A stretch of DNA of 64,000 nucleotides. Source: Chondrosia reniformis. Its lineage: Eukaryota > Porifera > Demospongiae > Chondrillida > Chondrillidae. A program made the translations under genes and the position numbers. Below are positions 10,492-63,747 of this stretch, piece after piece (within the stretch, counting starts at the first letter, position 1; each line of letters opens with the position of its first letter). The notes beneath the pieces were generated by a model, which was not told the origin of the DNA, did no database searches, and saw nothing but the letters and a program-made list of their open reading frames with translations. Location: the NCBI GenBank assembly GCA_947172415.1, contig OX359196.1:6201901-6265900 (forward strand). The letters run 5' to 3'.

Positions 10492-10547
10492 TTTATTACC
10501 TGGAGTCTAGATTTGTTTTCTTTTGGTCACACCTAGAGTAACTTAAA
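10492..10547. promoter_or_regulatory. 56-bp bidirectional promoter gap, TRM9-type gene and KLHL8
   Basis: Only 56 bp separate the two divergent start codons, so both transcripts must have very short 5' UTRs or overlap. No TATA box is visible. Confidence 0.5.
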
Positions 10548-42700: not shown

Positions 42701-43911
42701 ATATGTATATATGGGAGGAGCTATATTCACGTACAAAGTAGTATTGTGTATTGCTTAAAAATGTGATTGTACCTTGGAAACGTGTCTTCCTGAATTTTTG
42801 TAGAAACTTGGAAGATATGGATGACATGCGTGATCTCCTGTGAATGTAGATCACATATATGTTTATAAAGGTATAGATATGCACTGCATGGTAGGCAACA
42901 TAGAACATATCAATGCTGTAAAGATCCATACTCTGACATATGTAACTGAGATTTTATCACTAAAGGAATATTGAATTCGCTGAAACATTCCATTTCTTCA
43001 TAGATGCAGTAGCAATCTTAATGTGTTTATAGGATTTCCCAGTGGCCACATTATCAGGGCTATATTATGATATACACACATAGCTATTAATGTTGAGTTA
43101 CCTAATTAAATCAAACACCCTCAAAGGTACTATATATATAGATGCTGACTTACATTCGCTCTCTCATTAGTGTCTTGTAGCTGATATCCTTAATGCTGTC
43201 CAGGACCAGTTCTAAATCATCCATGGGGACTTCCCTTGGGACACAACAGTGATAAAAACAGCAACATCCACACACATTTATAATAATCAATCCCATGAGT
43301 AATGCAACGCTAGAATAGATGAGCAGAAATTTGCATTCCTTCAGCTCTACACAAAAAGACATAGACAGCAGCTAAGGCTATATTTATATGTACATAGCAC
43401 TGTACATGTGGTCACATGATCACATACGGTCCAGTTTACTGGATGATGAGTCATCAGAAGGGGTGCATAGGTCATCCATATCTAGGTATACACCACTGCA
43501 ATTATTGAGAAGACTTTTGTAGAGTTTTGCCTCACTGCAAGTACCATTTACATCAAGTGCTTCCAGGTACATCTGAAAGGTGCTGTTTGCACAGCTGCAG
43601 TATACTGTGTTATTAACAAACTGGTTGCTGGAGTCGTCACACAGAGGATATGCAGAGCTACAGAACCAAGCAGTGATCTCACTTGCGCAGTCACCTACCC
43701 TACTGGAGCTCTGAAGGCCAAGGAAGTTGTGGCATTCCAAATTGGTAGCATTATTCCTAGTAGAGACACATAATATTTGAAACTGAATTAGTATCTGTGT
43801 CATTTATTGCAATCAATTGCAAAAAGATAATTACGATGCAACTTACTCTACAGCGAGATTGAAAGTAGGAAGTGTTACTGCAACAATCACCACTGCCAAA
43901 ATTGTTCTCAT
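39761..43911 (-). CDS. Receptor tyrosine pseudokinase with Frizzled-type CRD
   Basis: About a dozen exons. The start at 43911 encodes a signal peptide (MRTILAVVIVAVTLPTFNLA). The ectodomain has C-x8-C-x6-C spacing (CASEITAWFCSSAYPLC), identical to the Frizzled cysteine-rich domain, plus further paired cysteines and N-glycosylation sites. A TM segment (SSVALLMGLIIINVCGCCC) follows. The kinase domain at 40.7-42.6 kb keeps the fold (WKWMAFEVLPY, TDVWSFGITAWEIFTLLEPY) but lacks catalytic residues. The VAIK lysine is Arg (KVAVRVI), the HRD catalytic loop reads HRNLSASHC with both Asp and the later Asn replaced, and DFG reads GFG (KISGFGAA). The C-terminal tail has several tyrosines (YPLYVNTARYTP, DYTAAS, YDEYII). 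Among animal RTKs, ROR and MuSK carry a Frizzled CRD, but neither matches this layout. It is probably a ligand-binding signalling scaffold. Exon borders are approximate. Confidence 0.8.
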
Positions 43912-46124: not shown

Positions 46125-47115
46125 TTAGTTTTCATTGACAATTGAATGATTTTCATTCAACCAGGTACCTTCACTTTCTCCCAGTGGTGAAGCCTTTAAG
46201 GAGCCAGCTGTATTAACATGCTGAGCACGTGAAATGGTATCTTCTTTGGAAATACTCTGTTGAATCACCTCCAGTTCATTAAAGTTCATGTAAACAGGTA
46301 GAGGTCCCTCTACTGTCTTGGTCACATGTTGGTCTTGTTGTTGGGTCATATCCACTTCTCTTTCTTCTTCAGGCTGTTCCTTAATTGACTCGAGTACAGT
46401 TGTTTCCTTGTTCTTACATTTCTCAGTACCTGAGCCACTTTCATTTAGAATTTCATCATATTCTTCAGTTTTACTTGATTCGGTTACACTCATGTCCTCC
46501 TGGGCTTCTGTTATGTTGATGTAGCGCTTGCCATCTAGGGTCTCTTCCTTCTCTCTTTCCCCTACGGCTGAATATAAGACTGCATAGGTGCTGGTACAGG
46601 TCCTGTTTGTATCCTGATCGACTGCACTATCCATACTCAGGCCCTCGACCCTTGATTGTCGTACTGATGCATACTGGTGATCCATCAGCTCACTGGGGTT
46701 ACAGTAGGGATGAGTATTAGGGTTGTTTCCTCTCCTCCGTCTCCTCCTTTTACAAACTATCCATGTCAGCAGTATTATGTGTACCCCAACACATGTCAGC
46801 AGCCCAAAGAAGGCAGCAGTACCAGTTGGGAGGGCTATTATCAGTATGTCTATTGGGAATGTATATGTTGGTGAGGGGGTAGATGTAGGGGATGATGTTG
46901 GGTTAGAACTTGAAATAGATGATCCAAAGCCTTCAAACAAATAGTAACCAATTACATATCACTTACAGTACAATTATATAACATACACGTAACCTACTCA
47001 TTACAGAAGACATACTCTCATTCATGGGAATTGTAGTGCTATTGCTTCTGCAACAATTACTAAGGGTTAAAAGAATTGCCCCCAATCGCACCACTCCCAT
47101 AAACACTTCTGTCAT
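46125..47115 (-). CDS. R1: short-stalk transmembrane protein with tyrosine-motif tail
   Basis: Two exons. Exon 1 (47115 to about 46996) encodes a signal peptide (MTEVFMGVVRLGAILLTLSN) and a short Ser/Thr-rich start. It ends in phase 1 at A|GTAGGT. Exon 2 (about 46931-46125) continues the Ser/Thr/Pro stalk (SSISSSNPTSSPTSTPSP), a TM segment (ALPTGTAAFFGLLTCVGVHI), a basic stop-transfer KRRRRRR and a tail of about 200 residues. The tail carries YASV, TYAVL, YSAV, YINI, YDEI and YMNF. YAVL resembles an ITIM core; YINI and YMNF fit YxN-type SH2 sites. No folded ectodomain is present. The family was not recognised. A 5' copy truncated in the tail (R2) lies at 54415-54777. The stop lies 185 bp past the CCDC138 stop on the other strand. 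Both exons are open and free of breaks. Confidence 0.75.
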
Positions 47116-47721
47116 TCTTCTCTTCTAAAGGAGATATTGGGATCCTATCAGTCCCTATATATTTAAAGGTATATATTAAGTCTTATGTCTATATTGACTT
47201 TCTATAACTATTGTTGCTTTGTTACCATCTAAATAAGAATATCCAGTTATAGTTTCATAATTCTACTTTGCAGACATCAAGTGGTAGAAAGGCAGGTCAT
47301 CAACTAAAAGCACACACCCACCATGTGAGTTATGGCAATATGGCAGACTTCAACTGAAATCATATGCACATGCATTACGTACATATATTAGCAAGTAAAT
47401 TACATACCTAATTCCACTGTAGATGGCGACATCTGAGATGTATTTATACATGAATGTATATCCTTGTATCATTCATATATTGGAGGATTAATGCTTTACC
47501 TAAGTGCTTTAATAACTAAATAATGTACAATTAGTTATCTTAGTGTCTGTTCCACAAATTAACAACTTACAAGTGATGAAATGAGGTTCACTGTAATCAG
47601 CTAGTAACTCTCAGATACCTCTTTGGTGTTAACTATAATAAAGCACAAAGACCTCTTTCCATGAGATCTCCTCAAATGATACTACTTCTAGAAATGTGTG
47701 AATATACTGTACATGAATACG

Positions 47722-47930
47722 TACATACTATAGCTTTGATCGGCTAGCAATAAGACCTTGATGTATACACGTACATACTTAAGCTTTGATCGGCTAGTTT
47801 TACGACCTTGATGTATACACGTACATACTTAAGCTTTGATCGGCTAGTTTTACGACCTTGATGTATACACGTACATACTTAAGCTTTGATCGGCTAGTTT
47901 TACGACCTTGATGTATAAGCTACTTTTGTA
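47722..47930. repeat. 50-bp tandem repeat downstream of A1, four copies
   Basis: The unit contains AGCTTTGATCGGCTAG followed by ACGACCTTGATGTATACACG. Unit starts are at 47731, 47781, 47831 and 47881; the first is slightly diverged. The rest of the 1.18-kb gap between R1 and A1 (47116-48291) holds no gene that I could see. Confidence 0.95.
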
Positions 47931-48291
47931 CTTTGACAAATCTAAAATGACTGATTTATCAAACATGCAGACCTATTTTTTACCAAAAAAGTGATACACA
48001 TGTATGTACGTATATAGAAATCATAAGTTCATATACGTATGTATGTATATGAGACTAGGCACTAAATATAACTCTGTCAGTTGTACCCTATACAGTATGA
48101 ATTTAAAGGTGTAGGTATATAATAATATTTGCTCATAATATATATGTACCAGGTATACAAAACTAACTTGTTCAGGAAAACATCTAAAGAGCTTAGTGTT
48201 ACAATTTATACACTGTGTAATATTATATACATTCTGTTCTACAAAAGTGTCTAATACGTCTGTTCAAATACAAAGTAAGGAATGATTTAGT

Positions 48292-51200
48292 TTAGAAGTC
48301 AACTGCGTCATATCCAAAATCAAAGTTTGGTTCACTCTTAGGAGCAGTCTCTTTCCCCTTCACTTCAGGCTCAGTATATATCTCATCATTGTTAGAAATG
48401 GGTTGTACATCATCTTCAATAGTCTCGTAGGGATGTTCCTTGCGAGCGAAGGCTCTTGGCTCCTGTGGTTTTCCACTAGTCTTAGCGTCAGAGACTGGTA
48501 CAACAGAAATCTTATTTGCACTGTCTGAGCCATCTATTGTTTCATAAAGTGAGTCCATCTTGCTATGCAATGTCTCCTCCTTGTGGAGCATCTCAGGATC
48601 AAAGGGAGGTACCTGTGGGGCTGTGCATTCATAGGTTGGGTCTGTTGGTGCTCCAGTACTACCGAAAAGAGAATCTTCAGCGTCCTGTTTTAGAGTCTTG
48701 CTTGTCTTTGCTGTCATGTCTGGTGCTGTATAAAGTATCTCTGGGTCAAAGGAGGGTACTTGAGGAGTCACGCCCTCATAATCCGGATCATTTTCATGTT
48801 GATCAATGCTTTCTTCCTTTGTTACAGTAGTAGGATTTTGGCTTTTCTGTGTCTTTGCTGACATGTCTGGTGCTGTATAAAGTATCTCTGGGTCAAAGGA
48901 GGGTACTTGAGGAGTCACGCCCTCATAATCCGGATCATTTTCATGTTGATCAATGCTTTCTTCCTTTGTTACAGTAGTAGGATTTTGGCTTTTTTGTGTC
49001 TTTGCTGTCATGTCTGGTGCAGTATAAAGTATCTCTGTATCAACGGGGGGCTCTTGAGGAGCCAGGTCTGCTGTGTTGTAAGTAGGTTCTGTTGGCTGTT
49101 GAGCCTTCTGTGTCTTGTCTGGTGCTGTGTACAGTGCATCAGGAGTGAGTGGAGGTAGTGAAGGCGGATCATCTGCTGTGTCATATATTGTGTTATCCAC
49201 ACCTTCACACAATCCCTTTCCATTTCTCTGCTTGTCAGGCTTAGTGTACAACACCTCAGAAGTGATTACGGCAGCTCCTCCGACCTTATCACGTGGTGTA
49301 GTCTTGTTTGGCTGACTGTACAGATCCTTTTGATCCTCTTTCAAGCTACTATTAACTACACTGTATTCTCCATCCAGCTGTTCAGGCCCAGGAACCTCAG
49401 TGGTGTTGTGAATTCTACTGTAACCAGATGAGCTAGTGGGTGGTGGAGGGAGTACAGCATCATTGGATATGTATTCATACTCAGCCTGTCCTTTGTCATT
49501 TGAAGGTGGACTTGTCTGGTTGGCATCTTTGATAGTGGAATACTCATTAGATGTGTCTCCCTTCTCGGCTATAGTCTGGTAACCTGCATCATCTTGAGAT
49601 GATAGTGGTTTTGTTGGAGATTTAGATATAGCAGCATATTCAGAGCCAGTGTGGTTTTCAGCATGTTCATTTTCAACTGTAACACCAGGTCCTTCCTCGT
49701 TTGTATGAAAGTCAACTGTTTTCTCAATTTTACTTTCTACATTATTATTTTCAACGAGTTGAGTCTTGTCGTCCTTCTTCCCCTCAGTATAGATATACTG
49801 TCCATCTTCTCCTCTTCCTGAGACATATCCAACAGAAGCAGAGTAATAGGTTTCATCTTTAGTCTTCCTTCTCTTTGTTCTTATCACCATGCAAACCACA
49901 AGTATTAGTATTACTAGTACCAGGAGCACTAACAGTACTGCACCTCCAACTGATGCACCTATGATGATGACTGTGGTATCTGCAAGGGGATAGAAATGGG
50001 CGTATTTACTGTAGGATGAATCATTGTACAATATATACCTAGGTGTATTTAACTGTTAGCAATTTTGTAGTAAAACTCATATATAGTGAGTTTTTACTAC
50101 AAGGATTAATATAGATTGCTTTAAAGATTTACTTAATCTTGTAGATATAATAAGGTATTATTGAGAACATGAACATGTGTATTTCTGTGTTTACACACAT
50201 ACATACCTGTAGTACTTGATTGTGGTATACTGATAGTATTAGATGTTGATAGTTCTGTGATTAAAGAGAATGAAGACTGTGACAATGACATATAGAAAGC
50301 AGTAGTGGATAAATGAAAGTACGTATGTACAGTACATATACGTACGTATAGGTATAAATGGTATGACATACAGTACATAGATGGTGTATAAAACTGATGA
50401 ATTCTCAGTTAATAAACTAAAGGCTTTAATCTTAGATCAAATAGTTGTATGAAAATAGTATTTTAGCTTTTAGCTGTATATTTCTCATATTTATGTGTAA
50501 TATATACATATGTATTATTTGTAACTGATGACTGTGTTGTCTGAAAGAGTATAAGATAGCCAAATAAAAGACAATTTGGATTATATGAACAGAACAAATA
50601 CACATACTGTATATACCTGCAGTGTCCTGAAGTGTACTAACAAAATTTGTAGTAACTGCAGGAGATTGCAATATTTCTATAAAAACATAAGTATTCAAAT
50701 AAAAAGCGGTGTTTATACTGTATACATACATATCTATACGTACATGTGTTATGTACGTAGTAGTGTTGGTTCACATTTATCTTTACTACTTGCTTGTGGT
50801 AAACAACTAGTGGTAGTACCTATTGGTTCTATTAAACATACGTATGTCAATATCATGCTAAGATTGTAACATTTATCACAGCAGCTATTCATTTGGTTAT
50901 TGTGTAGCCAATAGCCTATGAATATACTCATGTATCTGTACCTGTATTACGTGATGGTTGAACACCAGTTGTAACTGTAAGAGATACGTAAAGCTGAGTT
51001 TATAATAATAAATGTAATCATGCAGACCTGTAACATTTATGTACTACTATTGTGGAAATGCTGTACAATATACTTTTGATATTTGTAGCCAGTTTATATA
51101 TATGTATGTATGCATATGAATATATACGTACCTATAATTACTACAGATGTTGGTGTTATCTCTTTGGGACATGAATCTGTAGGAAAAAGTTTAAAATGTA

Positions 51201-53251
51201 CCTTAAAATTATATACATATGCAAATTTGGCTCTACCTACATACATTGTATCTCATCACTCTCATTCCTTTCTCTGCCTGTGATAAATCTTGTACTCACT
51301 ACCACAACTTTAATGTAGTATGTAGTTCCTTCCTCAAGTCCTGTTAAGTTGAAGTATGTTAGTTTAGTTATAGTAGTCAAGTCAAGTCAAGTCAAGTATC
51401 TTATTTAGACTGGGGAGGCCTTTAGCCATTGGCTACTATACTAGGCACCCAGTATTAAGAATGGGGGATGACAAAAATAGGGTAAGATGGGAATAAGAAC
51501 ATGAGGGGGGAAAAGCTGGTCGAAAATAAAAGGCCTAATTGTCATGTACAAGAAATAACTAGGGTGATATAATACAGGAAATAATAAATACCAAATTTAC
51601 AGGAAATGGGAGTGGGTATAATACATAAAAAAAATAAAAATAAAAATGAAAAAAATTTAGTCAAATTAAGAACAATAATAGGTTAATTGTTTATATAGTG
51701 TTAATTAAAGTGTCATTTCCCTCAGTTCTGTATTGAATGAAGTATTGTACATCTCCATTGGGTTCCCTAGGAGGTATCCAGTTGAGTTCAATACCATCTG
51801 TGAGTACTTTAGTGACTGTTAGATTTCTTGGTTTACTGGGACCTTTTGCTAGTTCAAATGATCATATACGTAAGTTTCACATAAAAAGAAGTATGGTATA
51901 TAAGTACTTATCTGTTAAATATAACTAACTTGAACCAGAGTCCAAATTTAGCATATTCACAGTAATTGGATTAGAGCTATAATTGCCTCCATTGACACTC
52001 CACACAGTAACACTATAATCTGCACCAGGTATAGCTATATCTTTCTCTATAGTGCCCACAGTACGTCCATTGTAGACTTGATATTCCACTTCCAAAGGTA
52101 CTCCTAAATCACTTCTACCAAATCTAGCAATGTAATATTGATATTGTTTATTAATTGTACTCTGGTCAACAGTTAATATACTTCTAAAGGATTGACTTGT
52201 GACTGTTATAATCGGTGCTTCTAAATGACCTACAATGAAGATACAATAGTTAACAGATGTACACTCAATATCTAACCATTCTCCTCACCACTGCCTCCTA
52301 AATATAAGAAGATCCTTTTGCTGCCCTCACCTGCAGCATTACTACACCTAAATCTTGTGTTCTGATAGCTATCAGTGCTAACTAGGAGGACCCTGTTTGA
52401 AGTATTTATTGTTCCATTAGGATATTGATATACTGGACTGCTTGAGTTATAGGAAACAATTTCATCAGTTTCAGTCCTCCATAAAGTATTAGCATTACTC
52501 TGTGCCATGGCAGTACATGAAAGATTAACATTTCCATCAGTATCAATTGCAAGGTCCCCAACATCAGTGACAATGACATCATTTGGAAGTAGATTTCCAT
52601 TACTGTGTATAACAGTTCCACCTGTATATAAGTACATTAGTACATCTTAAGTCATTGTGTTACTGTGAAGAAGGTATTTAGTACCTTGAACAGTGAGTGT
52701 AAAGGTAGAAGTTGTCACTTGATCTCCACCTCCCTCCACCTGACAAGTGTAGTCCCCTCCATCCTGTGGAGACAAGATGTTGATCAAGAGTCTGTCATGG
52801 TAGGTCCTTCTGTTGGGATTGTCTCCCTGTCCAATGTTACAGTGTCCGTTGGGACATGTCCAGGTGTAGTTGTAGTGTGTTCCATGAGGTAGTCCAACTG
52901 CTCTGGCAACCAAGACTAGAGTTGATCCCAGAAGCAGAGTAGCAGGAGAGTCTACTACTGATACAAGAGTGTAGCCATCTATCAGAAGTGAGACTGTAGT
53001 AGGAACAGGACAGGTGATTAGTAACACAGTACCAGTCTTGAGTTGATTAAAAGCATTTTTAGTTATAAACTGTTTAGTTACTCACTTGCGTTAGTACCCG
53101 GTCTAAGAGCAGTACCTATTTGTGATGGAAGGATTGGAGTTATGTTATATTTAATTCACATATTCTCTGTGTTCATTGACCTACCAACACAGAATAGTAA
53201 GATGACAACTATAAGACTCAGTTCTCCTCTTCTCCCTGTTGGATCAGCCAT
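48292..53251 (-). pseudogene. A1: Ig-Ig-FN3-FN3 receptor with long tyrosine-motif tail, ectodomain disrupted
   Basis: The signal exon at 53251 reads MADPTGRRGELSLIVVILLF. Ig1 (about 53027-52690) has YTWTCPNGHCN and DGGDYTCQVEGG. Ig2 (about 52625-52283) has GNVNLSCTAMAQ and NTRFRCSNAAGE. FN3a (about 52230-51935) has YYIARFGRSDLGVPLEVEYQ. FN3b (about 51850-51254) is interrupted by 322 bp at 51378-51699 that brings a stop right after DTLINT. Several tiny Ser/Thr-rich stalk exons follow, then the TM/tail exon (49985-48292): TM GASVGGAVLLVLLVLVILIL and a tail with YAAI, YQTI, YSTI, YEYI, YSRI, YSVV, YETI (twice) and repeated YTAPD. A 147-bp (49-residue) unit around LYTAPDM is repeated. The tail frame is intact over 579 codons of open frame. 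If the FN3b exon were skipped (exons appear to be phase 1) a shorter receptor could still be made, so the pseudogene call is tentative. Confidence 0.75.
51378..51699 (-). mobile_element. SINE-like insertion in the FN3b exon of A1
   Basis: The sequence is absent from the otherwise near-identical A2 and B2 exons. It is flanked by a 4-bp duplication TAGT (51374-51377 and 51696-51699). Read on the minus strand it ends in four copies of ACTTG, a short tandem tail as in many SINEs; an A-rich patch (T-rich on this strand) lies inside. The 322-bp net gain is not a multiple of three and adds a TAA immediately. No splice donor was seen at its left border that would make it an intron. The exact class is not recognised. 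Confidence 0.8.
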
Positions 53252-53447
53252 TCTGATGTTGCTCAACCTGTTTACTGTTTACTTAGCAGCCAGTATAACT
53301 ATATTCATTGGTCACATCCCACCTTAGAGTTTTATATGCTGCCTTCTTATATGGTATTTACAATGGGAAATGGAATTTGAATTTGAATTTCATAACTGAC
53401 ATTGAAATCTACAGATGCAAACAATGTCTATTTTACAGTTGTTTAAA

Positions 53448-54777
53448 TTATTTTACAGATTCATTTAATGATGTATAAAGATGACTTTCAGTATTGGCTC
53501 CTTGTAAAGGTGTATACACTGTATCTTGTATGTTCTGATAAGCCCCATCTTTCTCCTCCTTCTGATTAGTTGGAACAGTGTATGTTGCCTTGTTGACACC
53601 ATCTTGCAGTAGCTCTTGATAGTCACAACTTGTACTTTGACCTTTACTACTTTCCTCATCCACTGGTTCATAGACAGCCATGTTATTTTGTTTCATTTCA
53701 ATTTCATCATACTCTGGTCCCCCTACAGTGGCATACTGGTGTGACTGGGCAGCCTTCTCTGCAGCTTTGTACACAGCTCTTCTCTTCTTTGTTATAAATA
53801 TCCCACACAGCACTGTGCTTAGGACTGTTATCACAACCAGTAAGCCACAACTGACTGATATCCCTACTATGAGAGGCGTTGCGTTACCTGCAATGGAAGG
53901 AGAACAGATCACACTTGAGTGTGCTATTATTTCAAAAGCAATATTATATTTGTGAACATACAGTACATACATACCTGTGTTGCCCTGTGGTGTATTGTCA
54001 GTGTTAACAACAGCAGTATACACAGATATGGATATATCTGTGTAATATAAACAAACCAGACAATCATCATTTGTACAGGTACAGTCACACATGATTATCT
54101 TATAATGTACCTGAACTACCTAATGGCTGAATACTGATAGCTGTAACAAAAGTCGATAAAGTTGATCCTGTAAGGATAAAGGTAAAGTATGGACTAACTT
54201 TATATGATTTTTGGAAACGTTTGCATGCAGTTCATATATGAATTATCTAAGATACCATGCTCCAAAAATTATGGTTATCATGCCAATGAAGTTAAGGAAA
54301 CATTATAGACTAAAAACAATTTTCTAGAGTAATAACCTAGGGCAAACCTATAGAGTTTGGATGAGAATACAGTTAGGCTTCTACTTATGTCTTTAAGCGT
54401 ATGCAAATAATAGCTCAGGTACGTGTCAGCAGTATAATGTGTACCCCAACACATGTCAGTAGCCCAAAGAAGGCGGCAGTACCAGTTGGGAGGGCTATTA
54501 TCAGTATGTCTGTTGGGAATGTAGATGTTGGTGAGGGGGTAGATGAAGAGGATGATGTTGGGCTAGAACTTGAAATAGATGATCCTAAGCCTTCAAACAA
54601 ATAGTAACCAATTACATATCACTTACAGTACAATTATATAACATGCACGTAACTTACTCATTACAGAAGTCATATCCACATTCATGGAAAATGTAGTGCT
54701 ATTGCTTCTGCAACAATTACTAAGGGTTAAAAGAATTGCCCCCAATCGCACCACTCCCATAAACACTTCTGTCATTC
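53448..54777 (-). CDS. B1: receptor tail gene fused to the 5' part of R2 (chimera)
   Basis: Exons at about 54170-54115 (STLSTFVTAISIQPLGSS), about 54050-53975 (SISVYTAVVNTDNTPQGNT) and about 53888-53448 encode a stalk, a TM segment (LIVGISVSCGLLVVITVLST) and a tail with YATV, YDEI, YEPV, YQEL, YTVP, YQNI, YTPL and YTSL. They match B2 closely. The Ig and FN3 exons that precede them in B2 are missing. The next sequence upstream is the R2 remnant, whose signal-peptide exon (54777 to about 54658) ends in phase 1, the same phase at which the first B1 stalk exon begins. Splicing over the broken R2 TM exon would give signal peptide, stalk, TM and tail with no Ig domains. Whether this is a working gene or debris of unequal crossing-over cannot be told from sequence. 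Confidence 0.55.
54415..54777 (-). pseudogene. R2: truncated copy of R1
   Basis: Exon 1 reads MTEVFMGVVRLGAILLTLSN as in R1. Exon 2 reads the stalk (SSISSSSPTSSSSSTPSP) and TM (GTAAFFGLLTCVGVHIILLT) but then stops after RT. The homology to R1 breaks off at 54424, in the last part of the TM segment, so the whole cytoplasmic tail is gone. The sequence beyond the break (AATAGCTCAGGTA, 54407-54419) resembles 61866-61878, which joins B2 stalk to B2 FN3 DNA. This marks the recombination point. Confidence 0.8.
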
Positions 54778-55381
54778 TTCTCTTCTAAAGGAGATATTGG
54801 GATCCTATCAGTCCCTATATATTTAAAGGTATATATTAAGTCTTATGTCTATATTGACTTTCTATAACTATTGTTGCTTTGTTACCATCTAAATAAGAAT
54901 ATCCAGTTATAGTTTCATAATTCTACTTTGCAGACATCAAGTGGTAGAAAGGCAGGTCATCAACTAAAAGCACACACCCACCATGTGAGTTATGGCAATA
55001 TGGCAGACTTCAACTGAAATCATATGCACATGCATTACGTACATATATTAGCAAGTAAATTACATACCTAATTCCACTGTAGATGGCGACATCTGAGATG
55101 TATTTATACATGAATGTATATCCTTGTATCATTCATATATTGGAGGATTAATGCTTTACCTAAGTGCTTTAATAACTAAATAATGTACAATTAGTTATCT
55201 TAGTGTCTGTTCCACAAATTAACAACTTACAAGTGATGAAATGAGGTTCACTGTAATCAGCTAGTAACTCTCAGATACCTCTTTGGTGTTAACTATAATA
55301 AAGCACAAAGACCTCTTTCCATGAGATCTCCTCAAATGATACTACTTCTAGAAATGTGTGAATATACTGTACATGAATACG

Positions 55382-55540
55382 TACATACTTTAGCTTTGAT
55401 CGGCTAGCAATAAGACCTTGATGTATACACGTACATACTTAAGCTTTGATCGGCTAGTTTTACGACCTTGATGTATACACGTACATACTTAAGCTTTGAT
55501 CGGCTAGTTTTACGACCTTGATGTATAAGCTACTTTTGTA
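55382..55540. repeat. 50-bp tandem repeat downstream of A2, three copies
   Basis: Same unit as at 47722-47930. Unit starts are at 55391, 55441 and 55491, one copy fewer than behind A1. The rest of 54778-55903 matches the gap behind A1 and shows no gene. Confidence 0.95.
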
Positions 55541-55903
55541 CTTTGACAAATCTAAAATGACTGATTTATCAAACATGCAGACCTATTTTTTACCAAAAAA
55601 GTGATACACATGTATGTACGTATATAGAAATCATAAGTTCATATACGTATGTATGTATATGAGACTAGGCACTAAATATAACTCTGTCAGTTGTACCCTA
55701 TACAGTATGAATTTAAAGGCGTAGGTATATAATAATATTTGCTCATAATATATATATGTACCAGGTTTACAAAACTAACTTGTTCAGGAAAACATCTAAA
55801 GAGCTTAGTGTCACAATTTATACACTGTGTAATATTATATACATTCTGTTCTACAAAAGTGACTAATACGTCTGTTCAAATACAAAGTAAGGAATGATTT
55901 AGT

Positions 55904-58900
55904 TTAGAAGTCAACTGCGTCATATCCAAAATCAAAGTTTGGTTCACTCTTAGGAGCAGTCTCTTTCCCCTTCACTTCAGGCTCAGTATATATCTCATCA
56001 TTGTTAGAAATGGGTTGTACATCATCTTCAATAGTCTCATAGGGATGTTCCTTGCGAGCGAAGGCTCTTGGCTCCTGTGGTTTTCCACTAGTCTTAGCGT
56101 CAGAGACTGGTACAACAGAAATCTTATTTGCACTGTCTGAACCATCTATTGTTTCATAAAGTGAGTCCATCTTGCTATGTGATGTCTCCTCCTTGTGGAG
56201 CATCTCAGGATCAAAGGGAGGTACCTGTGGGGCTGTGCATTCATAGGTTGGGTCTGTTGGCGCTCCAGTACTACCGAAAAGAGAATCTTCAGCGTCCTGT
56301 TTTAGAGTCTTGCTTGTCTTTGCTGTCATGTCTGGTGCAGTATAAAGTATCTCTGGGTCAAAGGAGGGTACTTGAGGAGTCACGCCCCCATAATCCGGAT
56401 CATTTTCATGTTGATCAATGCTTTCTTCCTTTGTTACAGTAGTAGGATTTTGGCTTTTTTGTGTCTTTGCTGTCATGTCAGGAGCTGTATAAAGTATCTC
56501 TGGGTCAAAGGAGGGTACTTGAGGAGTCACGCCCTCGTAATCCGGATCATTTTCATGTTGATCAATGTTTTCTTCCTTTGTTACAGTAGTAGGATTTTGG
56601 CTTTTTTGTGTCTTTGCTGTCATGTTGGGAGCTGTATAAAGGATCTCTGGGTCAACGGGGGGCTCTTGAGGAGCCAGGTCTGCTGTGTTGTAAGTAGGTT
56701 CTGTTGGCTGTTGAGCCTTCTGTGTCTTGTCTGGTGCTGTGTACAGCGGATCAGGAGTGAGTGGAGGTAGTGAAGGCGGATCATCTGCTGTGTCATATAT
56801 TGTATTATCTACACCTTCACACATTCCCTTTCCATTTCTCTGCTTGTCAGGCTTAGTGTACAACACCTCAGAAGTGATTACGGCAGCTCCTCCGACCTTA
56901 TCACATGGTGTAGTCTTGTTTGGCTGACTGTACAGATCCTTTTGATCCTCTTTCAAGCTACTATTAACTACACTGTATTCTCCATCCAGCTGTTCAGGCC
57001 CAGGAACCTCAGTTGTGTTGTGAATTCTACTGTAACCCAATGAGCTAGTGGGTGGTGGAGGGAGTACAGCATCATTGGATATGTATTCATACTCAGCCTG
57101 TCCTTTGTCATTTGAAGGTGGACTTGTCTGGTTGGCATCTTTGATAGTGGAATACTCATTAGATGTGTCTCCCTTCTCGGCTATAGTCTGGTAACCTGGA
57201 TCATCTTGAGACGATAGTGGTTTTGTGTGAGATTTAGATATAGCAGCATATTCAGAGCCAGTGTGGTTTTCAGCATGTTCATTTTCAACTGTAACACCAG
57301 GTCCTTCCTCGTTTGTATGAAAGTCAACTGTTTTCTCAATTTTACTTTCTGCATAATTATTTTCAACGAGTTGAGTCTTGTCGTCCTTCTTCCCCTCAGT
57401 ATAGATATACTGTCCATCTTCTCCTCTTCCTGAGACATATCCAACAGAAGTAGAGTAATAGGTTTCATCTTTAGTCTTTCTTCTCTTTGTTCTTATCACC
57501 ATGCAAACCACAAGTATTAGTATTACTAGTACCAGGAGCACTAACAGTACTGCACCTCCAACTGATGCACCTATGATGATGACTGTGGCGTCTGCAAGGG
57601 GATAGAAATGGGCGTATTTACTGTAGGATGAATCATTGTACAATATATACCTAAGTGTATTTAACTTTGGAAAGGGTCATCTTTCGACTTTGGGAGCGTC
57701 TAGAGACGTAGTTTTTTGGTTCTTTCTGCCAAACATTTCGACTGGGGGTCTTCTTCAGTCACGCTCCCAAAGTCAAAAGATGACCCTTTCCAAAGATAGT
57801 TAGAAGAAATCCTTATTCTATTGTGTATTTAACTGTTAGCAATTTTGTAGTAAAACTCATATATAGTGAGTTTTTACTACAAGGATTAATATAGATTGCT
57901 TTAAAGATTTACTTAATCTTGTAGATATAATAAGGTGTTACTGAGAACATAAACATGTGTATTTCTGTGTTTACATACTTACCTGGACTACTTGATTGTG
58001 GTATACTGATAGTATTAGATGTTGATGGTTCTGTGATTAAAGAGAATAAAGACTGTGACAATGACATATAGAAAGCAGTAGTGGATAAATGAAAGTACAT
58101 GTATACGTATGTACATATATATATGTAGGTATAAATGGTGTGACATACAGTACATAGATGGTATATAAAACTGATGAATTCTCAGTTAATAACTAAAGGC
58201 TTTAGTCTTTGGTCAAATAGTTGTATGAAAATAGTATTTTAGCTTTTAGCTGTAGATTTCTCATACTTGTGTGTAATATGCACATGTATTATTTGTAACT
58301 GATGACTGTGTTGTCTGAAAGAGTATAAGATACGTAAAAAAACAATTTGGATTTTATGAACAGAACAAATACACATACTGTATATTGTACCTGCAGTGTC
58401 CTGAAGTGTACTAACAAAATTTGTAGATTCCAATATTTCTATAAGCATTCAAATAAAAAGCAGTGCTTATACTGTATACATATCTATACGTACATGTGTT
58501 ATGTACATAGTAGTGTTGGTTCACATTTATCTTTACTACTTGCTTGTGGTAAACAACTAGTAGTAGTACCTATTGGTTCTATTAAACATACGTATGTCAA
58601 TATCATGCTAAGATTGTAACATTTATCACAGCAGCTTTGGTTATTGTGTAACAGTAGCCTATAACATTGCAATTTTAACAAAATATCATATCATATGTAT
58701 GCACCTACATGACCCTTTAGTACAAATGTGTGCATATTTAAGTGTATAAATATTCTCATATATCTGTATATACCTGTATTACTTGATAGCTGAACACTGA
58801 CAGTTGTAACTGTAAGAGATAAAGCTGACTTTGTAATAATAAATGTAATCATGCAGACCTGTAACATTTATGTACTATTGTATGATTGGTGGAAATGCTG

Positions 58901-60771
58901 TACAATAAAGTTATAAGCTAATTTTGATATTTGTAGCCAGTTTATATATGTGTGTGTATGCATATGAATACAAACGTACCTATAATTACTACAGATGTTG
59001 GTGTTATCTCTTTGGGACATGAATCTGTAGAAAAAGTTTAAAATGTACCCTAAAATTATGTACCTCTGTAAATTTCGCTCTACCTACATACATTGTATCT
59101 CATCACTCTCATTCCTTTCTGTGCCTGTGATAAATCTTGTAATCACTACCACAACTTTAATGTAGTATGTAGTTCCTTCCTCAAGTCCTGTTAAGTTGAA
59201 GTATGTTAGTTGAGTTATAGTAGTGTTAATTAAAGTGTCATTTCCCTCAGTTCTGTATTGAATAAAGTATTGTACACCTCCATTGGGTTCCTTAGGAGGT
59301 ATCCAGTTTAGTTCAATACCATCTGTTAGTACTTTAGTGACTGTTAGATTTCTTGGTCTACTGGGACCTGGTGCTAGTTCAAATGATCATATACATAAAA
59401 GTCACATAAAAACAAATATGGTATATAAGTACTTATCTGTTAAATATAACTAACTTGAACCAGAGTCCAAATTTAGTGTATTCACAGTATATGGATCAGA
59501 GCTATAATTGTCTCCATTGATACTCCACACAGTAACACTATAATCCACTCCAGGTATAGCTGTATCTTTCTCTATAGTGTCCATAGTACGTCCATTGTAG
59601 ACTTGATATTCCACTTCCAAAGGTACTCCTAAATCACTTCTACCAAATCTAGCAATGTAATATTGATATTGTTTATCGATTGTTCTCTGGTCAACATTTA
59701 ATATACTTCTAAAGGATTGACTTGTGACTGTTAACATTGGTGCTTCTAAATGACCTATAATAAGGATACAATAGTTAACAGATGTACACTCAATATCTAA
59801 CCATTCTCCTCACCACTGCCTCCTAAATATAAGAAGATCCTTTTGCTGTCATCTCCTGCAGCAGTACACCTAAATCTTGTGTTCTGATAGCTAGCCATGT
59901 TAACAATGAGAAACCTGGTTGAAGTGCTTATTCCACCATCAGGATACTGATACACTGGATTGGTTGAGTTATATGAAACACTTTCATCTGTTTCAGTCCT
60001 CCATAAAGCAATAGTACTACTCTGTGTCATGGCAGTACATGAAATATTAACATTTCCATCAGTATCAATTGCAAGGTCCTTAGTATCAGTGACAATGGCA
60101 TCATTTGGAAGTAGATTTCCATTACTGTGTATAACAGTTCCACCTGTACATAAGTACATTAGTACATCTTAAGTCATTGTGTTACTGTGAAGAGGTATAA
60201 GTACCTTGAACAGTGAGTGTAAAGGTAGAAGTTGTCACTTGATCTCCACCTCCCTCCACCTGACAAGTGTAGTTCCCTCCATCCTGGGGAGACAAGATGT
60301 TGATCAGGAGTCTGTCATGGTAGGTCCTTCTGTTGGGATTGTCTCCCTGTCCAATGTTACAGTGTCCGTTGGGACATGTCCAGGTGTAGTTGTAGTGTGT
60401 TCCATGAGGTAGTCCAACTGCTCTGGCAACCAAGACTAGAGTTGATCCCAGAGACAGAGTAGCAGGAGAGTCCACTACTGATACAGGAGTGTAGCCATCT
60501 ATTAGAAGTGAGACTGTAGCAGGGACAGGACAGGTGATTAGTAACACAGTACCAGTCTTGAGTTGATTAAAAGCATATTTAGTTATAAACTGTTTAGTTA
60601 CTCACTTGAGTTAGTGCCCGGTCTAAGAGCAGTACCTATTTGTGATGGAAGGATTGGAGTTATGTTCTATTTAATTCACATATTCTCTCTGTTCATTGAC
60701 CTACCAACACAGAATAGTAATATGACAACTATAAGACTCAGTTCTCCTCTTCTCCCTGTTGGATCAGCCAT
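55904..60771 (-). CDS. A2: Ig-Ig-FN3-FN3 receptor with long tyrosine-motif tail
   Basis: An intact paralogue of A1. The signal exon at 60771 starts MADPTGRRGELS. Ig1 is at about 60540-60200 (YTWTCPNGHCN, DGGNYTCQVEGG). Ig2 is at about 60147-59810 (GNVNISCTAMTQ, NTRFRC). FN3a is at about 59757-59460 and FN3b at about 59375-59113 (LTDGIELNWIPPKEPNGGVQ, FNLTGLEEGTTYYIKVV), uninterrupted here. Small Ser/Thr-rich stalk exons follow at about 59.0-58.0 kb. The TM/tail exon (57597-55904) differs from A1 at about 15 residues in 579. Its tail carries YAAI, YQTI, YSTI, YEYI, YSRI, YETI and several YTAPD/N motifs; one YEGV of A1 is YGGV. Such sites would dock SH2 proteins after phosphorylation by a separate kinase. 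Borders look phase 1, allowing domain shuffling. The receptor family was not recognised; the layout recalls cnidarian Alr proteins and vertebrate ITAM/ITIM receptors. Confidence 0.8.
57667..57834. mobile_element. Inverted-repeat insertion private to A2
   Basis: 168 bp are present upstream of the A2 TM exon and absent at the matching place in A1 (about 50046). Long inverted arms run TTGGAAAGGGTCATCTTT at 57667 and its complement in AAAGATGACCCTTTCCAA near 57794, about 33 bp each with few mismatches. A 12-bp GTGTATTTAACT occurs at both sides (57655-57666 and 57823-57834). It is probably a MITE. Confidence 0.75.
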
Positions 60772-60967
60772 TCTGGTGTTGCTCAACCTGTTTACTGTTT
60801 ACTTAGCAGCCAGTATAACTATATTCATTGGTCACATCCCACCTTAGAGTTTTATATGCTGCCTTCTTATATGGTATATACAATGGGAAATGGAATGTGA
60901 ATTTCAATTTCATAACTGACATTGAAATCTACAAATATAAACAATGTTTATTTTACAGTTGTTTAAA

Positions 60968-63747
60968 TTATTTTACAGGTTCATTTAATGATGTATAAAG
61001 ATGACTTTCAGTATTGGTTCCTTGTAAAGGTATATACACTATATCTTGTATGTTCTGATAAGCCCCATCTTTCCCCTCCTTCTGATTAGTTGGTACAGTG
61101 TATATTGCCTTGTTGACACCATCTTGCAGTAGCTCTTGATAGTCACAATTTGTACTTTGACCTTTACTACTTTCCTCATCCACTGGTTCATAGTCAGCCA
61201 TGTTATTTTGTTTCATTTCAATTTCATCATACTCTGGTCCTCCTACAGTGGCATACTGGTGTGACTGGACAGCCTTCTCTGCAGCTTTGTATACAGCTCT
61301 TCTCTTCTTTGTTATAAATATCCCACACAGCACTATGCTTAGGACTGTTATCACAACCAGTAAACCACAACTGACTGATATCCCTATTATGAGAGGCGTT
61401 GTGTTACCTGCAATGGAAGGAGGACAGATCACACTTGAGTGTGCTGTTGTTTCAAAAGGAATATTATAATTGTGAACATACAGTACAGTACATACCTGTG
61501 TTGCCCTGTGGTGTATTGTCAGTGTTAACAACAACAGCAGTATACACAGATATGGATATATCTGTGTAATGTAAACAAACCAGACAATCATCATTTGTAC
61601 AGGTACAGTCACACATGATTATCTTATAATGTACCTGAACTACCTAATGGCTGAATACTGATAGCTGTAACAAAAGTCGATAAAGTTGATCCTGTAAGGA
61701 TAAAGGTAAAGTATGGACCAGTTTTATAATTTTATGTTCTATATTAGATGACTGAAATATACAGTGACAATGATAGTCTTGTTTAATCTCTATTCATGTC
61801 TTTAAGCATATTCCTTATCACACGTGCACCTTATTACAGTTTGTATGAATGCAAATACCTGATAATAAATAGTTCAGGTAATTGTATGATTGGTGGAAAT
61901 GCTGTACAATAAAGTTATAAGCTACTTTTGTTATTCGTAGCCAGTTTATATATGTGTGTGTATGCATATGAATACAAACGTACCTATAATTACTACAGAT
62001 GTTGGTGTTATCTCTTTGGGACATGAATCTGTAGAAAAAAGTTTAAAATGTACCTTAAAATTATGTGGCTCTGTAAACTTGGCTCTACCTACGTACATAC
62101 ATTGTATTTCATCACTCTCATTCCTTTCTCTGCCTGTGATAAAGGTCTGACTCACAACCACAACTTTAATGTAGTATGTAGTTCCTTCCTCAAGTCCTGT
62201 TAAGTTGAAGTATGTTAGTTGAGTTATAGTAGTGTTGATTAAAGTGTCATTTCCCTCAGTTCTGTATTGAATGAAGTATCTTACATCTCCATTGGGTTCC
62301 CTAGGAGGTATCCAGTTTAGTTCAATACCATCTGTTAGTACTTTAGTGACTGTTAGGTTTCTTGGTTTACTGGGACCTGGTGGAGTTAATAGTATAAGTG
62401 TACCATAAGAACAATTGAGTATATACACCTGTCAAGCAACGAACTTGAGTCTAAGTATAATTTCAATTCATTCACAGTATATGGATCAGAGCTATAATTG
62501 CCTCCATTGACACTCAACACAGTAACACTATAATCCACTCCAGGTATAACTGTATCTTTCTCTATAGTGTCCATAGTATGTCCATTGTAGACTTGATATT
62601 CCACTTCCAAAGGTACTCCTAAATCACTTCTACCAAATCTAGCAATGTAATATTGATATTGTTTATTAATTGTATGCTGGTCAACAGTTAATACACTTCC
62701 CAAGGATTGACTTGTGACTGTTAGAATCGGTGCTTCTAAATGACCTACAATGAAGATACAATAGTTAACAGATGTACACTCAATACTCTACTATTCTTCT
62801 CACCATTGCCTCCTAAATATAAGAAGATCCTTTTGCTGTCCTGCCCTGCAGCAGTACTGCACCTAAATCTTGTGTTCTGATAGCTAGCCATGTTAACAAT
62901 GAGAAACCTGGTTGAAGTGCTTATTGTTCCATCAGGATACTGATACACTGGACTACTTGAGTTAAATGTAACAGTTTCGTCTGTTTCAGTCCTCCATAAA
63001 GCATTACCCTGTGACATGGCAGTGCATGAAATAACATTTCCATCATTATCAATTGCAAGGTCCTCAGTATCAGTGACAATGACATCATTTGGAAGTAGAT
63101 GTCCATTACTGTGTATAACAGTTCCACCTGTATATTAGTACATCTTATGTCATTGTGTGACTGTTATACATGTATTAAGTACCTTGAACAGTGAGTGTAA
63201 AGGTAGAAGTTGTCACTTGATCTCCACCTCCCTCCACCTGACAAGTGTACTCCCCTCCATCCTGTGGAGACAAGATGTTGATCAAGAGTCTGTCATGGTA
63301 GGTCCTTCTGTTGGGATTGTCTCCCTGTCCAATGTTACAGAGTCCGTTGGGACATGTCCAGGTGTAGTTGTAGTGTGTTCCATGAGGTAGTCCAACTGCT
63401 CTGGCAACCAAGACTAGAGTTGATCCCAGAGGCAGAGTAGCAGGAGAGTCCACTACTGATACAGGAGTGTAGCCATCTATCAGAAGTAAGACTGTAGCAG
63501 GGACAGGACAAGTGATTAATAACAGTCTCAGTCTTGAGTTGATTAATAGCATATTTAGTTATAAACTGTTTAGTTACTCACTCGAGTTAGTGCCTAGTCT
63601 AAGAGCAGTACCTATTTGTGATGGAAGGATTGGAGTTATGTTATATTTAATTCACATATTCTCTATGTTCATTGACCTACCAACACAGAATAGTAAGATG
63701 ACAACTATAAGACTCAGTTCTCCTCTTCTCCCTGTTGGATCAGCCAT
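60968..63747 (-). CDS. B2: Ig-Ig-FN3-FN3 receptor with short tyrosine-motif tail
   Basis: The signal exon at 63747 starts MADPTGRRGELS, as in A. Ig1 is at about 63530-63185 (YTWTCPNGLCN, DGGEYTCQVEGG). Ig2 is at about 63127-62800 (LWRTETDETVTFNSSSPVYQ, NTRFRCSTAAGQ). FN3a is at about 62745-62450 and FN3b at about 62380-62115 (LTDGIELNWIPPREPNGDVR). A linker DSCPKEITPTSVVII follows. Two stalk exons, a TM segment (LIIGISVSCGLLVVITVLSI) and a tail of about 115 residues complete it. Tail motifs are YATV, YDEI, YEPV, YQEL, YTVP, YQNI, YIPL and YTSL; YIPL and YTSL are nine residues apart, near ITAM spacing. The ectodomain is nearly that of A2, while the TM and tail are unrelated to those of A, so A and B form a same-ectodomain, different-tail pair. 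It is the only complete B gene in the window. Confidence 0.8.

Follow-up and report, generated by a model that had tools for sequence, protein, structure and literature searches.

Sponges distinguish self from non-self in grafts, and part of the literature on this recognition points to the aggregation factor, to Ig adhesion molecules and to an Ig-domain receptor tyrosine kinase, the receptors being unsettled. A stretch of 64,000 nt of the genome of the sponge Chondrosia reniformis (contig OX359196.1, positions 6,201,901 to 6,265,900; here called the window) contains a cluster of receptor-like genes that a first-pass annotation proposed as a candidate allorecognition or immune-type locus. What kind of receptors do these genes encode, and is allorecognition the best account of them?

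Organization of the locus

The minus strand of the window carries two intact genes for single-pass proteins with an Ig-Ig-FN3-FN3 ectodomain, A1 and R2. The gene models are spliced predictions from the DNA; their splice ends are GT-AG, their internal exons are in phase 1, and signal peptides and transmembrane (TM) segments were assigned by eye and hydropathy. A1 (60968..63747, minus strand) has 10 exons in a phase-1 splice-consistent open frame of 637 aa. The signal peptide is followed by Ig1 (63491-63183), Ig2 (63127-62804), FN3-1 (62744-62445) and FN3-2 (62376-62101), then by short Ser/Thr-rich exons, and finally by the TM segment with a short tail (61407-60968). R2 (55904..60771, minus strand; 11 exons, open frame of 1060 aa) has an ectodomain of the A1 type, and its TM segment and long tail are encoded by one exon (57591-55904) with 28 Tyr.

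R3 (48292..53251, minus strand) is a tandem copy of R2 and the third Ig-Ig-FN3-FN3 gene. It has the same exon structure and an intact tail exon (49979-48292), but its FN3-2 exon (51848-51245) is 604 bases long, compared with 282. The exon is interrupted by a mobile repeat of 322 bp (51384..51705, no strand assigned, bounds approximate to a few bases) with 42 genomic matches listed, itself included, that are 75-100% identical; the longer ones span about positions 1-312 of the 322. Because the extra bases are a dispersed repeat, R3 is either broken or survives only with in-frame skipping of the FN3-2 exon, and so may be a pseudogene or an exon-skipping gene. A0, the fourth full gene of the group, lies just beyond the window. 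B4 (46125..47115, minus strand) is a small mucin-type gene of two exons (47115-46998 and 46930-46125, the start of the second placed by reading the splice site by eye). Its 307 aa comprise a signal peptide, a short Ser/Thr/Pro ectodomain, a TM segment and a tail with seven Tyr, which a genome search matched at this locus only.

Much of the cluster has arisen by duplication. The minus-strand unit at 46764-54204 recurs at 54424-61728. The pieces aligned by blastn have 94.4% identity, two short ones being internal repeats of the tail. Remnants of duplication are also present on the minus strand. B′ (54405..54775) is a truncated B copy that ends in the TM exon and matches residues 2-64 of the query at 83%, with one internal stop. 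A″ (53448..54204) consists of Ser/Thr exons, TM segment and A-type tail (tail exon 53887-53448), and lacks the Ig/FN3 ectodomain; a B′-A″ fusion product is conceivable. The gene starts (63747, 60771 and 53251 for A1, R2 and R3), the spliced models and the repeated unit thus bear out the earlier description of three gene types (R, A and B) in a repeat. Tandem duplication with broken copies is supported by the same 94.4% repeat, the interruption of R3 and the B′ and A″ fragments.

Ectodomains and tails

The annotation of the genes as Ig/FN3 receptors is also supported. Pfam fn3 (PF00041) scores above cut-off in both A1 and R2, and Ig_3 above cut-off in R2 and just below it in A1, while Ig2 and FN3-1 are below the Pfam cut-offs or unmatched. 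Structure models give Ig1 and Ig2 an Ig fold (mean pLDDT 86 and 84; for Ig2 two of five models were good). The Ig1 model weakly resembles Ig domains of NCAM, contactin and perlecan among many others (E about 1e-4), and the fold search with Ig2 gave weak matches, none at E<=0.001. The sequence of FN3-2 resembles FN3 domains of titin, RPTP-F and DCC, and the family profile of FN3-1 matches a Pfam-positive FN3 of a receptor tyrosine phosphatase (RPTP; hhalign 96%). The likenesses of Ig1, weak as it is, and of FN3-2 are points in favour of receptors that serve ordinary adhesion or signalling at contacts in the mesohyl or epithelium, duplicated but having no role in self/non-self discrimination.

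The tails had been described as devoid of kinase, and indeed no kinase or other Pfam domain scores above cut-off in those of A1, R2, B4, R3 and A0. Receptor tyrosine kinases are thus ruled out for the window genes, as are receptor tyrosine phosphatases by the absence of a PTP domain from the same tails. What the tails do contain is an excess of tyrosine motifs, as the first-pass annotation had noticed. The number of Yxx[ILVPM] motifs exceeds the shuffle expectation in R2 (18 against 6.8), A1 (8 against 2.0), B4 (6 against 1.5) and A0 (8 against 2.3), with p=0.0005 in each case, which is the floor for 2000 composition-preserving shuffles. Among relatives aligned with the R3 tail Tyr is kept at 54%, against 30% for other residues (37 pairs). 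To describe the tails as canonical ITIM/ITAM would be an overstatement. The ITIM consensus occurs once in A1, three times in R2 and twice each in B4 and A0 (shuffle p of 0.31, 0.095, 0.0495 and 0.14 respectively), and one ITAM-like pair is found in each of A1, R2 and A0 (p 0.02-0.05) and none in B4. Canonical ITIMs are therefore few and at most marginally enriched, and most of the sites are general SH2-type Yxx[ILVP] motifs; classification as canonical ITIM receptors was rejected as unproven.

An expanded family and its divergence

The FN3-2 exon of a relative, 66-68% identical to that of the window, is found with 87-100% identity at 28 places, four of them partial, on five chromosomes, so a family limited to this locus is ruled out. 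Behind FN3-2 a TM segment and Tyr-bearing tail, of several sorts, were present in 26 of the 27 loci that were read (L046-L072). Related ectodomains are thus joined to different tails, both in the window (A1 compared with R2) and at the loci elsewhere with FN3-2 at least 87% identical. By its sequence relationships the window holds a minor share of an expanded, genome-wide receptor family, a point that escaped the first-pass annotation, as did the phosphatase relative described below. Five other family tails have stops inside the match (three on C10, together with C13:639530 and C10:868913); with the broken R3 and the B′ and A″ fragments, this indicates that parts of the family are decaying. 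Searches with the tails found 39 related proteins in other sources, while full-length A1 as query gave no homologue at E<=0.01. No open-licence paper, judged by titles and the beginnings of abstracts, was recognised as describing this receptor family.

About 40 further places are ~50% identical to the relative's FN3-2, and the one that was opened encodes a receptor tyrosine phosphatase with collinear FN3 domains. The phosphatase L076, in the C13 cluster of the Chondrosia genome, has a PTP domain with a WPD loop, in which HC and SAGVGRTG are separated by an intron. Its FN3 domains are collinear with FN3-1 and FN3-2 of the family (hhalign 96% and 98%); the match of FN3-1 to its third FN3 is 0.1%, and that of family Ig2 to its Ig domain is weak (25%). 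By blast the single FN3-1 sequence of R2 has no meaningful match to L076 (E 2.0), domains of L032 and L033 match it with E of 3e-6 and 3e-4, and FN3-2 of L033 also matches the third FN3 of L076 (47% over 58 residues). Where L076 carries a PTP domain the window genes carry putative docking tails instead. Many PTP duplications were reportedly described in sponges around 1999; among open-licence papers none was found on RPTP expansion in Porifera.

The domains diverge unequally. Between R2 and R3 dN/dS is 0.24 in the tail, 0.36 in Ig1, 0.87 in Ig2 and 1.05 in FN3-1, and the ratio of nonsynonymous to synonymous differences is 43:14 in Ig2 plus FN3-1 against 17:21 in the tail (Fisher p=0.0044). The dN/dS comparisons leave out the R3 FN3-2 exon (owing to its insert), comparisons across tail types and all tail comparisons with A0. 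Codon models were fitted to paralogues outside the window, 16 copies for Ig1 and 17 for the other domains from 28-30 kept per domain, the copies being picked after the types had been seen and omitting divergent types and genes unmatched for some domains; copies whose matched stretch contained stops or whose coverage was <75% had been left out of the family set. Gap-free M1a against M2a gave 2dlnL of 38.6 for FN3-1, 19.1 for Ig2 and 13.8 for FN3-2, and 0.6 for Ig1 (i.e. no positively selected codons), with a class of codons at omega ~3.6 in FN3-1 and Ig2. Simulations covered the first three of these domains. The maxima from 30 null and 30 recombinant-null simulations were 5.7 and 12.6 for FN3-1, and 9.0 and 10.3 for Ig2; for FN3-2 the maxima from 18 of each were 1.9 and 9.2. 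FN3-2 is the most conserved exon of the ectodomain, yet it exceeds its simulated nulls (13.8 against 9.2), and some pairs have dN/dS >1 (the highest 4.5, on 14 changes), so part of the selection signal may be due to gene conversion or a poor fit of the model.

For the four genes of the window group dN/dS in the ectodomain is about 0.4-1.3, with one value of 1.85 on 6 changes (i.e. elevated, but not clearly >1). Signs of a diversifying ectodomain are thus present among relatives outside the window and are not clear within it. Constraint on the tail is clear for R only; the pair of A1 and A″ tails has dN/dS of 0.91 on 16 changes, and T1-cluster tails lie at 0.55-0.81. The many pairwise values near 1 suit relaxed constraint after duplication, as expected of ordinary adhesion receptors, but the codon classes in FN3-1 and Ig2 beyond their simulated nulls and the constrained R tail argue against that account, which we regard as possible while falling short of an even chance.

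Possible roles in recognition and a proposed mechanism

Vertebrate paired receptors (of the KIR, SIRP and CEACAM types) have related ectodomains with different signalling tails, tandem clusters and fast evolution. The sponge family shares all these features, but has few canonical ITIMs or ITAMs, and its R tails are long with multiple Tyr for putative docking. Hydractinia Alr proteins have tails with Tyr motifs and ectodomains of Ig-type domains only. One account gives the family 41 genes, whose domains are of the V-set and I-set types (PMC11999971). Compared by description, the window genes are like Alr in being single-pass IgSF receptors (TM segments by eye and hydropathy) with Tyr-motif tails in a tandem family, but differ in having FN3 domains (PF00041 in A1 and R2), so that kinship with Alr is not supported, and in belonging to a family spread over several chromosomes. 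Also by description, they resemble the GSAM adhesion molecules and the Ig-domain RTK of Geodia cydonium as sponge Ig surface proteins, for which a recognition role has been proposed (PMC7916673, PMC12018476); the Geodia RTK has a kinase, which the window genes lack.

Could the receptors then decide fusion or rejection through alleles that differ between individuals and ectodomains that match (e.g. homophilically), as in Hydractinia? The diversification of FN3-1 and Ig2 in the family, the tandem duplication and fragments, and the Tyr tails are all consistent with this. So are four T1-type tails that are near, and not identical to, the twelve T1-like tails of Chondrosia, with best identities to these of 89% (P0021), 86% (P0022, 91% against the whole genome), 95% (P0026) and 97% (P0046). 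This fits haplotypes or individuals differing in content, although the source could be a close species. Against allorecognition, the family is scattered over five chromosomes or more instead of forming a single complex, and in the main text of a graft transcriptome of a different sponge, Amphimedon, a word search found immunoglobulin, fibronectin, tyrosine and receptor absent (PMC5450542). Among the open-licence papers that a search on grafts listed, none mentions Chondrosia. We consider allorecognition improbable and do not prefer it to a role in adhesion or towards microbes.

Alternatively, bacterial surface molecules could have driven the diversification of receptors for symbionts or microbes in a microbe-rich sponge. 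Ectodomains of the Ig/FN3 type are no less characteristic of receptors acting between cells, which tells against this, while diversifying selection and the expansion of the family are in its favour. Two sources lend it further support, reporting 53 binned bacterial genomes from the sponge specimen (PMC12181767) and independent expansion of SRCR in a sponge (PMC10855680). We judge this somewhat unlikely.

Both of these readings would be special cases of the explanation that we prefer, and think probable, in which the genes encode SH2-docking receptors triggered by contact, whose ectodomains diversify and whose tails have been exchanged between genes. A role in recognition is likely. The family plan is single-pass (Ig1-Ig2-FN3-FN3-stalk-TM-tail). 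Binding of a ligand to FN3-1 and Ig2, the variable face, would cluster receptors at the contact with a cell or particle, and a Src-type kinase would phosphorylate the Yxx[ILVP] sites. The tail would then recruit SH2 proteins (kinases, adaptors or SHP-like phosphatases), which would set the response. The ligand is probably variable, being surface molecules of other cells, symbionts or microbes. Genes for SH2 proteins and tyrosine kinases are present in the genome, and an SHP-like order of SH2-SH2-PTP, taken from match positions alone, occurs twice at C3:9.107-9.117 Mb. Since all modelled non-first exons share a start phase, an existing ectodomain can acquire a different tail through unequal crossing-over and gene conversion, and such exchange could provide the same recognition part in an activating and an inhibiting form.

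A wider proposal, which we put forward as rather unlikely, is a modular system in which a single family of diversifying Ig-FN3-FN3 ectodomains would be carried both on docking receptors with interchangeable tails and on RPTPs. One class of ligand would then set the balance of phosphorylation at contacts, with FN3-1, not Ig, as the main variable domain, and somatic discrimination of self from non-self, or of symbionts, would depend on the family. As a multigene family whose ectodomains diversify and whose tails are putative docks at phosphotyrosine, these receptors are a concrete candidate for self/non-self recognition in sponges, with high divergence between haplotypes as the key prediction. 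If true, it would mean that the logic of immune receptors (one recognition part, many tails and phosphatase partners) is present in early-branching animals, with FN3 as the variable domain.

Structure and duplication of the receptor genes

The genome assembly odChoReni1.1 of Chondrosia reniformis is described as comprising 117.37 Mb in 14 chromosomes plus the mitochondrial genome (PMC12181767), and the window lies on chromosome 8 at 6.20-6.27 Mb. The gene start is present in three copies on the minus strand, at 63747, 60771 and 53251. Spliced models with GT-AG sites were obtained for two receptor genes, A1 (10 exons, 637 amino acids) and R2 (11 exons, 1060 amino acids). Both have the order signal peptide, Ig1, Ig2, FN3-1, FN3-2 and small Ser/Thr-rich exons, followed by a single last exon encoding the transmembrane segment and the tail. 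All internal exons are of phase 1 and a multiple of three in length, and this common phase makes exchange of tails easy. The ectodomain stretches of A1 and R2 are ~91% identical in DNA. Their tails, by contrast, share neither length nor composition (as cut for motif counts, 113 residues in A1 and 530 in R2). R3 is a copy of R2 with a 322-bp insertion inside the FN3-2 exon; the insert has at least 42 matches listed genome-wide (including itself), and is a dispersed repeat. A fourth gene, A0, lies just beyond the window edge. It is 90, 69 and 83% identical to R2 in Ig1, Ig2 and FN3-1, but its FN3-2 differs (39%) and its tail is of yet another sort. The small gene B4 starts with a signal peptide, and its ectodomain is short and mucin-like. 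Its tail is of its own kind, found by genome search at this locus only, in one full and one truncated copy. These predicted receptor gene structures are well supported.

The units 46764-54204 and 54424-61728 are 94.4% identical over aligned pieces, and one tandem duplication of ~7.5 kb explains the arrangement of these genes. At the junction the truncated B copy adjoins an A-type tail (A''), from which the Ig and FN3 exons have been lost. On reading the sequence, a 50-bp tandem repeat (47740-47915 and 55390-55530) has one extra copy in unit 2 compared to unit 1. The last intron of R2 carries a short element (57662-57798) with 38-nt inverted repeats that are 95% complementary; the corresponding position of R3 showed no such element.

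Tyrosine motifs were compared with 2000 composition-preserving shuffles per tail. Yxx[ILVPM] was observed 18 times in R2 (6.8 expected), 8 in A1 (2.0), 6 in B4 (1.5) and 8 in A0 (2.3), with p=0.0005 for each. Enrichment of the ITIM consensus in these tails was marginal at most. The first-pass annotation had described tandem Ig/FN3 and mucin-like receptor genes with tyrosine-motif tails, and the splice models, the duplication and the shuffles bear this out. The tails were also said to lack a kinase domain; consistent with this, a Pfam search of the A1, R2, B4, R3 and A0 tails gave zero domains over cut-off.

Two other genes were noted in the window. A BTB-BACK gene (10542-12302, plus strand) is probably of Kelch type, the Kelch part being read by eye. 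A receptor-tyrosine-kinase-like gene (39761-43803, minus strand) matches Pfam PK_Tyr_Ser-Thr in three ORFs, one under cut-off. By eye it has GFG in place of DFG, and is thus possibly a pseudokinase; a Pfam search of its Cys-rich exon (43420-43803) gave no match.

A genome-wide family with different tails

The cluster is part of a family larger than the window suggested. The FN3-2 exon of a relative was searched against this genome, and 150 of 445 candidates were scored, so that the counts are lower bounds. Among at least 144 matches, at least 28 places (rows counted by hand; four partial) have FN3-2 87-100% identical, on five chromosome-scale contigs (C8 14, C14 6, C10 5, C13 2 and C1 1); A1 and R2 rank next, at 68 and 66%. 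In 27 of the 28 places the following 1.5 kb were read. An open frame encoding a transmembrane stretch plus a tyrosine-bearing tail is present in 26, and locus L071 showed none. Ten tails are of the T1 sort (LYAxPDK) and two are T1 relatives; seven are short (IYEVV/YEEV/AYATV), four of these preceded by a third Ig domain. The remainder comprise two kinds on C14 (2 and 4) and a single tail that carries VYEPVDEQLQQ repeats. Stops fall inside the tail match at five family places, three on C10 plus C13:639530 and C10:868913. The number of LYSQPDKA/T repeats, and with it that of docking sites, differs between four paralogues at C14:1.31-1.36 Mb (L062, L066, L067 and L068). The Ig1 B-strand Cys is Ala in all four window-group copies (A1, R2, R3 and A0) and Cys in the other 11 aligned; the canonical Ig disulfide has apparently been lost from this group.

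The R tail is related to these family tails: an alignment combining R, T1-like and two outside tails, used as query, retrieved 48 proteins. Nine of them have Chondrosia-like sequences, and 39 come from other sources (38 ENA, 1 JGI). Several of the 39 lie on contigs of equal size, and are therefore probably clustered elsewhere too. Compared with the 37 longer than 300 amino acids, the R3 tail keeps Tyr at 54% (341/637) of aligned positions, against 30% for residues other than Tyr. Conservation of Pro equals that of Tyr (55%, 37 pairwise comparisons). Four T1-type tails sharing one contig size (8.59 Mb, ENA) are 86-97% identical to twelve T1-like genome tails, none being the same; for one of these four, P0022, the best whole-genome match is 91%. 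Such differences would be expected of another haplotype, individual or close species, and are suggestive only as regards allorecognition. An alternate haplotype assembly is given as GCA_947172445.1 (PMC12181767).

At least ~40 further FN3-2 places (48-59% identity, hand count) lie at C13:1.62-2.35 Mb, and at least 14 of the PTP matches listed fall at C13:1.65-1.96 Mb. The one locus read here, L076, encodes Ig, three FN3, a transmembrane segment and a PTP domain. This domain contains a WPD loop and the active-site motif HC-SAGVGRTG, the latter interrupted by an intron. In profile comparison, FN3-1 of the family corresponds to the first FN3 of L076 (96% probability) and not to the third (0.1%), and FN3-2 to the second (98%), indicating an ectodomain part common to docking receptors and a phosphatase; the Ig2 profile matches the Ig of L076 only weakly (25%). 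The best FN3-2 pieces are 41-44% identical to L076, compared to 26-34% for eight generic FN3 loci of the genome. We infer that other C13 genes resemble L076. Dense PTP matches at C6:0.6-1.26 Mb and kinase-domain matches in single open frames at C14:0.6-1.14 Mb are further large expansions.

Selection on ectodomains and tails

Between R2 and R3 the tail has dN 0.013 and dS 0.055 (dN/dS 0.24), while dN/dS is 0.36, 0.87 and 1.05 for Ig1, Ig2 and FN3-1. Nonsynonymous changes outnumber synonymous ones in Ig2 plus FN3-1 (43:14), unlike in the tail (17:21; Fisher p=0.0044). For the A1 and A'' tails constraint is not evident (dN/dS 0.91 on 16 changes). Beyond the window, seven family genes were compared pairwise, and for FN3-1 dN/dS rises to 2.2. 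FN3-2 is little changed in most C8 pairs, but some FN3-2 pairs also have dN/dS above 1, the highest being 4.5 from 14 changes.

Models M1a and M2a were compared with a self-written program using 16-17 genes outside the window, the four window genes being too few. With all columns 2dlnL was 49.9 for FN3-1, 27.6 for Ig2, 5.7 for Ig1 and 13.95 for FN3-2, and with gap-free columns 38.6, 19.1, 0.6 and 13.8. Nulls without selection were simulated for FN3-1 and Ig2 (30 plain and 30 two-tree recombinant each) and FN3-2 (18 and 18); one run gave an overflow warning. The plain and recombinant maxima, which cover one kind of recombination only, were 5.7 and 12.6 for FN3-1, 9.0 and 10.3 for Ig2, and 1.9 and 9.2 for FN3-2. 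Favoured FN3-1 codons cluster at alignment positions 3-22 and 43-49. Since FN3-2 is also positive, not all of the selection signal need be driven by ligand.

Probable role of the receptors

Related ectodomains stand ahead of different tails, which are enriched in tyrosine motifs, and constraint is uneven. By analogy with known signalling, the receptors would cluster on contact with ligand, Src-type kinases would phosphorylate the tails, and SH2 proteins would then dock on them. SH2 and tyrosine-kinase genes are present in the genome. Match positions give the order SH2-SH2-PTP twice at C3 9.107-9.117 Mb, resembling that of SHP phosphatases. The family is likely to have a role in recognition, for which allorecognition is one candidate among several.
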